IMG/VR virus record: IMGVR_UViG_3300027749_000047
Coordinates: 62,001 to 126,000 of that record
Direction: 5' to 3' (one strand)
Length of the DNA stretch: 64,000 nt
DNA from: a virus
Shown: positions 47,108 to 63,314 of the stretch, piece after piece
Layout: each line of letters starts with the position of its first letter
How positions within the stretch are numbered: position 1 is the first letter of the stretch
Made by a program: the position numbers and the translations under genes
Notes under the pieces: generated by a model
What the model was told of the DNA's origin: nothing
Databases searched by the model: none
Seen by the model: the letters and a program-made list of their open reading frames with translations, nothing else

Positions 47108-47179
47108 GGTACTGTAGTCCAATAGAGCAGAGACGGCCAGAAAATGGAGGGATTGCAGGTTCAAATCCTGCCAGTACCA
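47108..47179 (+). tRNA. tRNA-like element with defective anticodon arm
   Basis: The acceptor stem is perfect (GGTACTG with CAGTACC, then A) and so is the T arm (GCAGG-TTCAAAT-CCTGC). The D arm is short (GTCC-AATA-GAGC with one mismatch) and lacks GG in the loop. The anticodon arm cannot form five pairs: only CCA/TGG pairs around GAAAA, and no T precedes a plausible anticodon. Total length 72 is normal. No CCA is encoded at the end. It may be a decayed tRNA or a tRNA mimic. Confidence 0.55.
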
Positions 47180-47670: not shown

Positions 47671-47750
47671 GGGGCAGGAAGGTTTCGACTAGACATTAAA
47701 ACCGCATGTCGGTAGTGTTTAGGACCAGAGTTCAATTCTCTGCTGCTCCA
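47671..47750 (+). ncRNA. Minimal tmRNA-like gene (tRNA-like domain only)
   Basis: The 5' end GGGGCAG pairs with CTGCTCC at 47743-47749, with a G-U at pair 3-70, the alanine identity mark, followed by A. The sequence after the 5' stem holds GGTTTCGAC, the conserved D-loop region of bacterial tmRNA. The T arm is perfect (CAGAG-TTCAATT-CTCTG). In place of the tag and pseudoknots there is one 10-bp helix (CTAGACATTA with TAGTGTTTAG, two G-U pairs) closed by CCG-CATGT-CGG. Normal tmRNA has about 350-400 nt; this has 80. Confidence 0.7.
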
Positions 47751-47776: not shown

Positions 47777-48247
47777 GTGACAACGCAAACATTAGAGAAG
47801 ACACTTGATAGGTTTTATTCAAAAACTCAAGTATCTGCAGGTACTGATTGCTTGAAGTGGGTTGGTGCTATTAATAGCCAAGGTTATGGAAACTTTTGGT
47901 ATGAAGGTAAGACTGTTTCAGCACATAGGTTTATTTTTGTTATGCGCAAGAATGATGGTGAATGGCTAGATAGAAAACTAGTTGTTAGACACACATGTGA
48001 TACTAGAGATTGCACAAACATTGATCACCTTATTTCTGGTACTTACGGCGACAACTTGCAAGATGCTTGGGATAGGAATCGTCGTAGTCGCACGTTAAAG
48101 AAAAAGTCTTCTGCAGTTGCTAAAAAATGGAGTGAACACGCTCACGATGTGGGACTAGATGATTTGGAAACCCCTACGTTAGAGCAGATACGTACTGCTC
48201 AAAAGTTAGCTCGTGAAGTTCTTAGGGAACAAAAAGCGCGTGGCTAG
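47777..48247 (+). CDS. HNH endonuclease (homing-type)
   Basis: The 156-residue protein starts with GTG after AAAGGAGATAA. It has the HNH_3 pattern: CLKWVGAINSQGYGNFWYEG, SAHRFIFVMRKNDGEWLD, VVRHTCDTRDCTNIDHLISG and TYGDNLQDAWDRNRRS. Such free-standing nucleases are often mobile, and others near the terminase are needed for packaging. It lies just upstream of the large terminase. The C-terminal helix (TLEQIRTAQKLAREVLREQK) is extra. Confidence 0.85.
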   Translation: MTTQTLEKTLDRFYSKTQVSAGTDCLKWVGAINSQGYGNFWYEGKTVSAHRFIFVMRKNDGEWLDRKLVVRHTCDTRDCTNIDHLISGTYGDNLQDAWDRNRRSRTLKKKSSAVAKKWSEHAHDVGLDDLETPTLEQIRTAQKLAREVLREQKARG

Positions 48248-48308: not shown

Positions 48309-49814
48309 ATGACTGAATCACCTATTTTTAGCCTTGTCAGGCCACCAACCAATAAAGAAGAGTTGTGGTGGACTGTTAAAGCGCTGTGGGGTGTTGAACT
48401 TCCAAGAGTGCAAGTGTGTCCGGATCACACAGCGCCTTTTGATGCTTTTGCAGAGGCGTATTTTGGTAATGATTACAACTGGGTGCTTTGGTATGGTTCG
48501 CGTGGTACAGGCAAGTCTTACATGCTTGCTTTGCTTGCTTTAACTAAGGCTGCTTTGCTTGAGATTAACGTAACGCTTCTTGGTGGGTCTATGGCTCAGT
48601 CACAAAACATTCATGAGCATGTGGAGTTTTTGACGCAATTTCGTAATGCGCCAGTGCACGCTATTGAATCAATTATCAAGACACAAATTACTTTTACTGG
48701 TGGTAACTGGATTCGTCCTCTACCAGCTTCTCAAAAGACTGTTCGTGGTCCTCACCCTCAAATGACTCTGCTTGATGAGATTGACGAAATGGAGCGTAAG
48801 ATTTATGACGCTGCTATGGGTCAGGCTATGACTAAACCTAACGTGCGTGGCGTTGAGATTCCTGAAATGGTTGTTGCTTCTTCTACTTGGCAAAACCCTG
48901 TTGGCACGTTTCAGTCTGTTATGGATGAAGCTTTGGCTAAGGGTATGCCTGTTCGTACGTGGTGTTATCGTGAGCAGTTGAAACCTAATGGGTGGATGGA
49001 TCCTGATTTTATTGAACGTAAACGTATGTCTGTTCCAGCAGAAATGTTTCGTGTTGAGTATGAACTTGGTGAACCTGCTGGTGGGTCTCGTGCGTTTGAT
49101 TTGGAAAAGTTAAATAAGGCTTTTGTTGAATTGCAGATTGTTGATGAGCGTCATTCTGCTAATGATGATGAGTGGATTTTTGAGCATCCAGTGCCTACTG
49201 CTACTTATTCTGCTGGGGCTGATTGGGCAAAAGAGCAAGATAAGACTGTTATTGCTGTGTTTAGGTTAGATGAGGGTAAGCGCACTCTTGTTTATTATCG
49301 CCGGTTTAATCGTATGGATTGGCCTACGATGATTGGTGTTTTTAACAAGGTAACTACTGACTATCAGGCTATGGCAGCGCATGATGCTACTGGTATTGGC
49401 AATGTTGTTCATGACATGGTTGATGAGCGTGTGATTAAGTTTACGATGTCTTCTCAGAAGCGTACTGAGATGCTTACTAATTACATTACTGCTGTTGAGC
49501 AGGGGCGTTATCGTTTGCCTCGCAATACGCCTGCTTACAATGAGCATAAGTCCACTACTGTTGAGGAAGTTTTTGGTGGTGGTGGTTGGAACTCTCATTT
49601 GTCTGATGATGTGTGTGCTTTTGCTTTGGCTCATCATGCTGCTGAACGTATGGCTCCTCCTGCTTCTGGTGAGGGTGTTAAGAAAACTGAATTTGCTCCG
49701 GCTAAGTTTAAAGAGATTACTCCTGTCTATGAGGATGATGGGCGTTACGTTACGCAGGTTGGTTCAGTGACTGTTAAGGATGACAGTGGTGTTGGAGTTT
49801 TTAACCTTTTCTGA
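48309..49814 (+). CDS. terL: Terminase large subunit
   Basis: The 501-residue protein has the packaging ATPase motifs: Walker A GSRGTGKSYMLALLAL (about 63-78), Walker B with glutamate in QMTLLDEIDEMERK (about 153), and the nuclease acidic residues in SAGADWAKEQDKTVIAVFRL (near 305) and MAAHDATGIGNVVHD (near 358). It drives DNA into the prohead and cuts the concatemer. It is in the expected place before the portal, but holin-like and Dps-like genes are inserted between. AGGAAAGT precedes the ATG. Confidence 0.95.
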   Translation: MTESPIFSLVRPPTNKEELWWTVKALWGVELPRVQVCPDHTAPFDAFAEAYFGNDYNWVLWYGSRGTGKSYMLALLALTKAALLEINVTLLGGSMAQSQNIHEHVEFLTQFRNAPVHAIESIIKTQITFTGGNWIRPLPASQKTVRGPHPQMTLLDEIDEMERKIYDAAMGQAMTKPNVRGVEIPEMVVASSTWQNPVGTFQSVMDEALAKGMPVRTWCYREQLKPNGWMDPDFIERKRMSVPAEMFRVEYELGEPAGGSRAFDLEKLNKAFVELQIVDERHSANDDEWIFEHPVPTATYSAGADWAKEQDKTVIAVFRLDEGKRTLVYYRRFNRMDWPTMIGVFNKVTTDYQAMAAHDATGIGNVVHDMVDERVIKFTMSSQKRTEMLTNYITAVEQGRYRLPRNTPAYNEHKSTTVEEVFGGGGWNSHLSDDVCAFALAHHAAERMAPPASGEGVKKTEFAPAKFKEITPVYEDDGRYVTQVGSVTVKDDSGVGVFNLF

Positions 49815-60857: not shown

Positions 60858-63314
60858 GTGAATCGTTGGTGGGCCAATCCGGAGTTATCTGCAGAGATTT
60901 TAAAGTCTGTTGATGATTCGGATGTTGTCAATGGTGTTGGTGTGGCTGTTTTGGGTTATCACGGGCTTGCTATGGGTGTTTTAAAGCCTTTAGTTACTCA
61001 GACACTAGTTGATACTCATACTGTGCGTAAGGCGCTTTTACAGGTTGATTTACAGCCTATTGCTAAGGCTTTGTCTGAGGCAACTAAACCTGTTATGGGT
61101 GATGCTTCTGAACGTTATGGCAAATTGTTGGCTGATGCTATTCATGAGAAAGCCGTGGCTTCTACTGAGCGTTTATTGCATACGTGGACAAATAACGGAA
61201 TGCCTTGGCCTAACGCTATTGAACGTGCTGCTGAGGTGCATGGTGTTCCTGTTGAGCGTCTGGGGCGTTATGCGTCTGTTATGAAAGCGGCTACTGTTAA
61301 TCCGCATATTCGTGCTGATTATGCTGATCGCGAGTTGATGACTTATGCATCTGTTATGGGTAGTCGTGAGTCTTTGATTTCTTCTGAGTTAATTTCTAAG
61401 CAAAAGTCTGAGTTTGAAGAGTTGCACCCTAGGGCTTCTGATGGTCGTTTTACTGATAAGAGTGAAGTTCTTGATTTGCGTGCCAAGTTGAATAAGATGA
61501 AAAAGTTTAAGGCTGCTCGTGAGGTTGGTTCGCAAGTCAAGCGTGGTACTTTTGATTTTGCTAGGTCTAAGACCGCTGGTGAGTCTCGAACTAAGATTGC
61601 GCCTCGTACTAAAGTGGAGCCTAAAAAAATGGAGGTGCAAACTACTGGCGATACTTTTAAAACTAGTTTTAGGCATTCTTTTCGCAAGCCTGATTTTAAA
61701 CTAAACGACCCTAGTGGCGATTGCCCTACGGTTCCAACGTTTTTTGTTAATGGTGACGTGTATATTCCTGTTAATGCTTCTTTACTTAATCAAATTAAAA
61801 AGCAGAGTAATCTTTTTACTGCGTGGGATGTTAAGAATCATGATGGTAATGGTGAACTTGAGGCTTTTGGCAAAGATGGCTTTAGTGACTATGTTGACAT
61901 ACGTGGTTTAAAAAATATTGTTAATGAAGGCACTGTTCTTCTAAAATGTAGTTACACGCCTGTTCACAAGAATCGTGCTGATGTTTTGACTAATTCTAGC
62001 GGTAATCCGCATACTGATGATTTTAAGTGGAGTACTGTTGCACCTAAAGCTACATTTAGACTTGTTACTGGTGGCCCAGAGCCTCGCAGTTTAATGTCTT
62101 TGATTAATGCCGGCAAGCATAAGTTGCACAGTTATTCTGACGATTTTGAAGACGATTTTGTACCTAATACTGATGATTTTAAAGTTTATGAAATCGCTTT
62201 GGTTAATGATGATCCTGATTTGTGGGAAGAAGATATTAGTAAAAATTTGTCAGATGAGGAGCGTGAGGTTTTTAACGTAGAACATCCTCGTGCTGTTAAT
62301 GGTCAGTTTACTGATAAGAATGTTACGTCTCTTAAGGCTAAGTTGGATAAGCGCAATAAGATGGCTCGCCAGCGTGAGATTGGGCAAAAAGCTAAGCAGG
62401 GTAATTTTGATTTTAAAGAGTCGCGTCAGAATCAAGCTGATGTTCGTCAGAAGGTTTCTGCTTTGCGCCAAGAGCCAGTTTTTGCTGAAACTAAATTTAA
62501 GCAAAGTTTTAAAACTAATTTTAAAATGTTTTATAGGGATGAAACACATGACCCTATTAAGTTTGGTGACAGTTGGGCTGTGATTGTTCCTTACGGTATG
62601 TCTCCTATGCCTGATTTGTGGCCATGGTTAAATGAAAAAGCATTTAGCGAGCGTTCGTATAAAAAAGAAACTCACCCTAAAGGTCCTACAGAAATAGTTT
62701 CAGGAAATCTTGAGGATGATAGAACTGCTTTAAAAGTGTTTAAAAATACTCATGGCAGCAGTTTGTTAATACCTAGAGAACAACGCACGTCTCCCGGTAG
62801 GGCTTTGTCACCAGTTGTTGGAAATATTATTAATCATGCTGATCGCAGAGAGCCTGAAAAAATTATTAAAGTTACAGGTACTGGTGGTAATAGCGAAGAT
62901 ACTGGTGAGTGGTCTTTTGAAACACCTGAGCAGGCGCTTGAAGCGGCTAATAATAGTAAGCAGCGTTTTAGTCTAAGTAATTCATTTTTAATGTGGCAAC
63001 CGGAAGCTTTGATTAATGAAAACGGCGAATATGATGCTATTTTGGCTGGGTACAACCCAGAAGAGAAATATCAACTTATTGTAGGTAGTTATAGTGACCT
63101 TTGGGAAGCGCATTATATTGCTAACGAAAATCCTGAAGAGTTTGCTGAAAGAGTAAAAATTGTGCCTTCTGATAAGGACGTAAGTAATTTGCAGGAGTTT
63201 TTATCACTTAGTGATAGCGATGAGATTATTGATGAAGTTAATTCGGCTATTCGCGATAAGGGTACTAACCCGCCAATAGAATTGTATGAAATTAAAGTTA
63301 TGCCACCTTGGTAG
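60858..63314 (+). CDS. Large head-module protein with internal duplication
   Basis: The 818-residue protein starts with GTG after GTAGGGGATT. Residues 1-180 are helical, of the kind found in phage head minor proteins. Two related segments follow: FEELHPRASDGRFTDKSEVL with DLRAKLNKMKKF and GTFDFARSK (about 190-240), and FNVEHPRAVNGQFTDKNVTS with LKAKLDKRNKMA and GNFDFKESR (about 470-520). Each precedes a TFKTSFRHSF or KFKQSFKTNF basic word. The remainder has no known domain. HPRxxxGxFTDK motifs occur in head maturation proteins. Confidence 0.7.
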   Translation: MNRWWANPELSAEILKSVDDSDVVNGVGVAVLGYHGLAMGVLKPLVTQTLVDTHTVRKALLQVDLQPIAKALSEATKPVMGDASERYGKLLADAIHEKAVASTERLLHTWTNNGMPWPNAIERAAEVHGVPVERLGRYASVMKAATVNPHIRADYADRELMTYASVMGSRESLISSELISKQKSEFEELHPRASDGRFTDKSEVLDLRAKLNKMKKFKAAREVGSQVKRGTFDFARSKTAGESRTKIAPRTKVEPKKMEVQTTGDTFKTSFRHSFRKPDFKLNDPSGDCPTVPTFFVNGDVYIPVNASLLNQIKKQSNLFTAWDVKNHDGNGELEAFGKDGFSDYVDIRGLKNIVNEGTVLLKCSYTPVHKNRADVLTNSSGNPHTDDFKWSTVAPKATFRLVTGGPEPRSLMSLINAGKHKLHSYSDDFEDDFVPNTDDFKVYEIALVNDDPDLWEEDISKNLSDEEREVFNVEHPRAVNGQFTDKNVTSLKAKLDKRNKMARQREIGQKAKQGNFDFKESRQNQADVRQKVSALRQEPVFAETKFKQSFKTNFKMFYRDETHDPIKFGDSWAVIVPYGMSPMPDLWPWLNEKAFSERSYKKETHPKGPTEIVSGNLEDDRTALKVFKNTHGSSLLIPREQRTSPGRALSPVVGNIINHADRREPEKIIKVTGTGGNSEDTGEWSFETPEQALEAANNSKQRFSLSNSFLMWQPEALINENGEYDAILAGYNPEEKYQLIVGSYSDLWEAHYIANENPEEFAERVKIVPSDKDVSNLQEFLSLSDSDEIIDEVNSAIRDKGTNPPIELYEIKVMPPW

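Follow-up and report, generated by a model that had tools for sequence, protein, structure and literature searches.

The window is a 64,000-nt stretch of viral DNA, positions 62,001 to 126,000 of IMG/VR record IMGVR_UViG_3300027749_000047. On its plus strand we found an 80-nt gene which, judged by its sequence, is one for a stand-alone tmRNA tRNA-like domain (TLD) without a tag. The features of the gene and its surroundings are:

47108..47179, plus strand: weak tRNA-like gene, a neighbor outside the element (RF00005, 36.6 bits; missed by ARAGORN)
47671..47750, plus strand: tag-less tmRNA (TLD-only RNA gene), 80 nt (RF00023; family model R1; syntenic footprint)
47671..47677, plus strand: 5′ strand of the acceptor stem, GGGGCAG, pairing with 47743-47749 in 7 bp that include G3-U70 (fold)
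47681..47689, plus strand: tmRNA-type D loop GGUUUCGAC, whose final C starts P2 (sequence)
47689..47722, plus strand: closed P2 hairpin replacing the mRNA-like domain and pseudoknots (fold, pairing and pair-type diversity)
47723..47725, plus strand: GAC finishing the GGAC motif 5′ of the T arm (GGAC is common in the family)
47726..47742, plus strand: T arm, perfect 5 bp, loop UUCAAUU (fold; family covariation)
47743..47750, plus strand: 3′ strand of the acceptor stem, CUGCUCC, and discriminator A73 (sequence)
47777..48247, plus strand: HNH endonuclease gene, downstream (PHROG 6254, E 7.8e-21)
48309..49814, plus strand: terminase large subunit gene, used for finding syntenic relatives (PHROG 2, E 1.4e-19)

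The gene (47671-47750, plus strand) reads GGGGCAG GAA GGTTTCGAC TAGACATT AAAACCGCATGTCGGT AGTGTTTAGGAC CAGAGTTCAATTCTCTG CTGCTCC A. Two programs had been named as checks by the initial annotation: the Rfam tmRNA model RF00023 matches across its full length with 61.4 bits (E 1.4e-21), 288 of its 374 positions being deleted in the alignment, and ARAGORN misses the gene, reporting neither a tRNA nor a tmRNA. At the gathering threshold the tmRNA model of Rfam matches the locus and the tRNA model does not; the D arm and the anticodon arm with readable anticodon that mark a tRNA are absent from the 80 nt. The score against the family model R1 is 84.4 bits. The predicted fold, at -27.8 kcal/mol, compares with a mean of -18.8 for 200 shuffles (z = -3.1). 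It contains the 7-bp acceptor stem, a P2 of 9 bp (47689-47697 with 47714-47722), an A-rich internal loop at 47698-47700 and an apical stem-loop, ACCG-CAUGU-CGGU, with a 4-bp stem at 47701-47713. Sequence, fold and Rfam match thus agree with the initial annotation, which had noted both halves of a TLD, with a paired acceptor, G3-U70 as alanine identity, a tmRNA D loop and a perfect T arm. CCA is not encoded; CAC comes after the discriminator. Across the family, 150 of 160 sequences have C at the position following the discriminator (74), and full CCA is encoded in only 38.

It had also been claimed that one hairpin replaces the tag frame and pseudoknots and that the RNA could not tag proteins, and both claims held up. 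The pseudoknots and mRNA-like domain of tmRNA are missing from the gene, with the closed hairpin in their stead, and this hairpin, at 34 nt, is too short to leave space for a resume codon and tag reading frame, neither of which was found. GCA, the usual resume codon, occurs in the apical region of 64 family sequences, and in 57 of these no in-frame stop follows it before the RNA ends. A hidden tag frame was rejected, there being no conserved frame with a stop.

Similar elements were found in many phages; the counts from the viral scans are lower bounds. All scans together yielded at least 160 unique sequences (97 at 85% identity), and the pattern of D loop, short spacer, T loop and acceptor end was found in at least 118 viral contigs. 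Bacterial and archaeal genomes (257 Gb) gave 19 matches, 7 of which pass the structural parse, all from draft or metagenome assemblies, which suggests that the element is essentially viral. Plasmids gave no real member, only 33-nt partial matches. P2 positions 1-8 pair in 99, 97, 98, 94, 92, 86, 76 and 76 of 99 sequences, with up to six pair types; these were parsed sequences for which P2 pairing was not a selection criterion. The T stem likewise covaries, with up to 6 pair types. An alignment of 29 sequences has the named structure paired in 99.7% of cells, and its covariation score of 0.706 compares with 0.158 when shuffled and at most 0.187 with slid partners. The RNAalifold consensus of a 90-sequence alignment missed the acceptor stem because linker lengths vary; a length-matched subset recovered it. 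The GGAC motif is present in 87 of 107 unique sequences. The apical element, an A-rich internal loop and then a CC..GG hairpin (uAAAR-CC-NNNN-GG-A, often CCGCAYGCGG; 47698-47713 in the window), is conserved across otherwise dissimilar phages.

Early search patterns had required U70 or the D loop. To guard against circular evidence, searches were repeated with no constraint on the 3′ strand of the acceptor, on the D loop or on the acceptor stem as a whole, the acceptor-free pattern consisting of D loop, GGAC and T loop only. The latter search gave 117 unique viral sequences among the matches listed (fetched loci), a pool that includes loci fetched by the earlier, stricter patterns. Among these listed matches, with the acceptor unconstrained, 3:70 is G·U in 116 of 117 and residue 73 is A in all 117; all seven acceptor pairs form in 115 and all five T pairs in 117. 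The acceptor pairs 4:69 to 6:67 drift over 4-6 pair types in the same pool. Among the matches listed only L183, related to the L004 group but with one base deleted, departs from G·U, so the loci gained only by the looser search all obey G·U. Freeing the D loop still recovered loops of the GG-N-UCGAC type; its core is therefore conserved even when not searched for. Such a pattern would be expected if selection acts both on charging by AlaRS and on the tmRNA elbow.

Terminase-based synteny led to 7 further loci (L124, L126, L128, L129, L130, L132 and L146) where the element lies 113-892 bp upstream of a related terminase gene. Their 80 nt align almost gap-free and are nearly identical, and the 200 nt on either side are unalignable. 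Paired changes among the relatives include one in the acceptor, from GGGGCAG/CTGCTCC to GGGGTAG/CTACTCC, and another from CCGCATGTCGG to CCACACGTTGG. Conservation of the 80 nt with compensatory changes, while the flanks cannot be aligned, indicates that the element is under purifying selection. The initial annotation had looked to relatives for compensatory changes, which were found, and had considered that decay of the acceptor or T arm would count against it; no such decay was seen. The element was absent within the available sequence of more distant terminase relatives. Some of these have a diverged TLD-like RNA (L162 20103-20179, L163 12914-12990, L168 20261-20337 and L173 19604-19680, all minus strand), which keeps G3-U70 and P2, has paired changes at 4:69, a D loop GGAAAGAC and TAAC instead of GGAC, and scores 36-40 bits with RF00023 (two records scored), under the cut-off.

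Elements tend to sit in tRNA arrays. Twelve of the 97 non-redundant elements have a tRNA gene no more than 20 nt away, in each case on their own strand (random mean 1.0, maximum 4), and 22 have one within 500 nt (random 8.5). In Streptomyces phage Shaeky the element occupies the unannotated stretch that separates tRNA-Phe from tRNA-Leu in a tRNA array; in LuckySocke, pSt2308 and BRock it is found among tRNAs with an RNA ligase gene nearby; in GiJojo it falls within a stretch annotated as hypothetical protein; and in Pontimonas phage phiPsal1 it is directly upstream of the major capsid gene. Hosts are named for isolated phages only. None of these members in the Streptomyces and Pontimonas phages is annotated as a tag-less tmRNA. 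The tailed Streptomyces phage Wakanda has a full tmRNA of 280 nt in a tRNA array (NC_070785.1 74290-74569; L306), its product annotated as 'Hypothetical Protein', and permuted full tmRNAs of cyanophages S-CAM1 and S-CRM01 (L305 1175-1443 and L304 835-1056, both minus strand) are unannotated in the records viewed.

The virus record of 135,953 bp (G000:C1:1-135953) has two matches to the element, 67 kb apart. It consists of two related genomes of about 68 kb joined end to end, with aligned blocks mostly 70-86% identical, and is probably a chimeric assembly. Each of the joined genomes carries one element (the other copy is at G000:42520), and two paralogs in one phage were therefore rejected. A full tmRNA elsewhere in the phage, of which the element would be a broken copy, had been raised as a further objection; none was found in this record or in 23 other phage records, and the broken-copy explanation was rejected with no full tmRNA among the 24. 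Nor was smpB found in 22 phage records that bear the element or are related. The tRNA-like gene at 47108-47179 has a good acceptor and T arm and an irregular middle with no obvious anticodon. Between it and the element is a match to the manA RNA motif (RF01745, 47300-47482, plus strand; 52.1 bits, E 3.4e-12) that just misses the gathering score of 55.2; this motif has been described from marine sequences, gamma-proteobacteria and cyanophages (PMC2864571). The nearest terminases of named phages are too distant for naming a host. Among DNA polymerases, those of actinobacteriophages are nearest to that of the phage (30-34% identity), which is weak evidence on the host.

The kind of RNA is already known. 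Mycobacterium phage DS6A, called "TLD only" in the tmRNA Website papers, has a tmRNA cut to little beyond the TLD (PMC4131195, PMC11915505), and the present RNA is a further case of that kind. Both are phage-encoded TLDs without a tag, the likeness being one of description. Whether chargeable or not, a DS6A-like TLD-only RNA strongly inhibits the cell's own tmRNA in E. coli (PMC4131195, PMC11915505), and titration of SmpB may be the cause (PMC4131195); the DS6A result, of Mao et al. 2009, is given here as relayed by these later papers (PMC4131195, PMC11915505). DS6A was described as a single case, whereas the present family is found in many phages, with an apical hairpin that is conserved. The phage RNA shares with the one-piece tmRNA of RF00023 an acceptor with G3-U70, a D loop of the GGUUUCGAC type, P2, GGAC and the T arm, but not its resume codon, tag frame and pseudoknots. 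Tag-less tmRNAs also occur in the mitochondria of jakobids and oomycetes (RF02544) and as genes of about 65 bp in Mallomonadaceae plastids (PMC11915505). These too have no tag reading frame; however, the mitochondrial genes are usually permuted, whereas the phage gene is one-piece and its hosts are presumed to own a full tmRNA. The full tmRNAs of Wakanda, of mycobacteriophages and, permuted, of S-CAM1 and S-CRM01 are likewise phage-borne and often among tRNA genes, but retain the mRNA-like domain that the tag-less family does not have. A wider phage family of tag-less tmRNAs is not described in the open-licence literature that we searched; the kind is much larger than described there, and what is new is how widely it occurs, that its alanine identity is invariant and its apical hairpin conserved, and that it often lies in tRNA arrays.

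We favor, at a probability of roughly 0.55, the reading that the RNA would be alanylated, bind SmpB and, by competing with host tmRNA in a dominant-negative manner, reduce trans-translation in the infected host. The 80-nt RNA would be matured by RNase P and CCA enzyme as a tRNA is, charged by AlaRS through G3-U70, and bound by host SmpB and EF-Tu. It could then enter ribosomes that have stalled for lack of a stop codon, competing for them, as well as for SmpB, with the tmRNA of the host. Having no resume codon, it could not add a degradation tag, and would for that reason act as a dominant-negative competitor. In favor of this reading are the TLD anatomy and Rfam match, G3-U70 and A73, the covariation, the unalignable flanks, the D loop, the lack of a tag and the array habit, as well as the absence of both phage smpB and phage full tmRNA from the records checked. 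The earlier suggestion of a decoy against host trans-translation agrees with the published DS6A TLD-only inhibition in E. coli. Against competition, that inhibition was independent of charging, so SmpB titration alone would not predict a G3·U70 held fixed beside drifting pairs; the charged form probably matters, which suggests action on ribosomes beyond absorbing SmpB. A pure inhibitor would moreover leave the conserved apical CC..GG hairpin unexplained, and the persistence of organellar tag-less tmRNAs may point to a positive role for the tag-less form (PMC11915505).

A rival reading is rescue without tagging, which we hold to be possible, at well below even odds: a charged TLD with SmpB would enter the stalled ribosome and take the nascent chain, and the ribosome would be recycled with the protein untagged, sparing phage proteins tag-directed proteolysis while freeing ribosomes. 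Invariant alanine identity is expected if peptide transfer onto the RNA is the purpose, the gene is located among phage tRNAs, and mitochondria that keep SmpB retain tag-less tmRNAs (PMC11915505). However, without resume and stop codons there is no known step that frees the ribosome, so that release would call for a hydrolase or another rescue factor, and what has been published for a TLD-only RNA is an inhibitory effect. Given that inhibition, the blocking of stalled ribosomes against host tmRNA would be favored over tag-less rescue. That phages spread a minimal tag-free rescue RNA, which SmpB would carry in its alanine-charged form and for which the apical hairpin would be an extra binding site, seems unlikely. 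An alanine-bearing tRNA mimic working outside trans-translation, for example as a decoy for host defenses that cut or modify tRNAs, would have no need of SmpB; the RNA has no anticodon to attack. The tRNA arrays, some with the RNA ligase gene beside them, and the retained acceptor of chargeable type fit such a mimic, but the conserved tmRNA-specific D loop and GGAC are absent from ordinary tRNAs, and we regard it as improbable. The tmRNA gene is an integration site for many mycobacteriophages (PMC10865867), and integration there might leave a decayed tmRNA or an integration-site remnant of host ssrA; attP copies, though, typically hold the 3′ part only. Here both halves are present and paired and are maintained with the hairpin, P2 covaries, and practically all relatives have intact acceptor and T stems, a conservation pattern that refutes decay and makes a remnant extremely improbable.

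What was a single oddity in DS6A is now a large RNA family of phages. Its members were missed or misannotated even where Streptomyces phages have been sequenced, and the cultured carriers BRock, LuckySocke, GiJojo and Shaeky allow direct testing. If trans-translation is blocked or rerouted by these RNAs, this would be an RNA-based phage takeover of host ribosome rescue.
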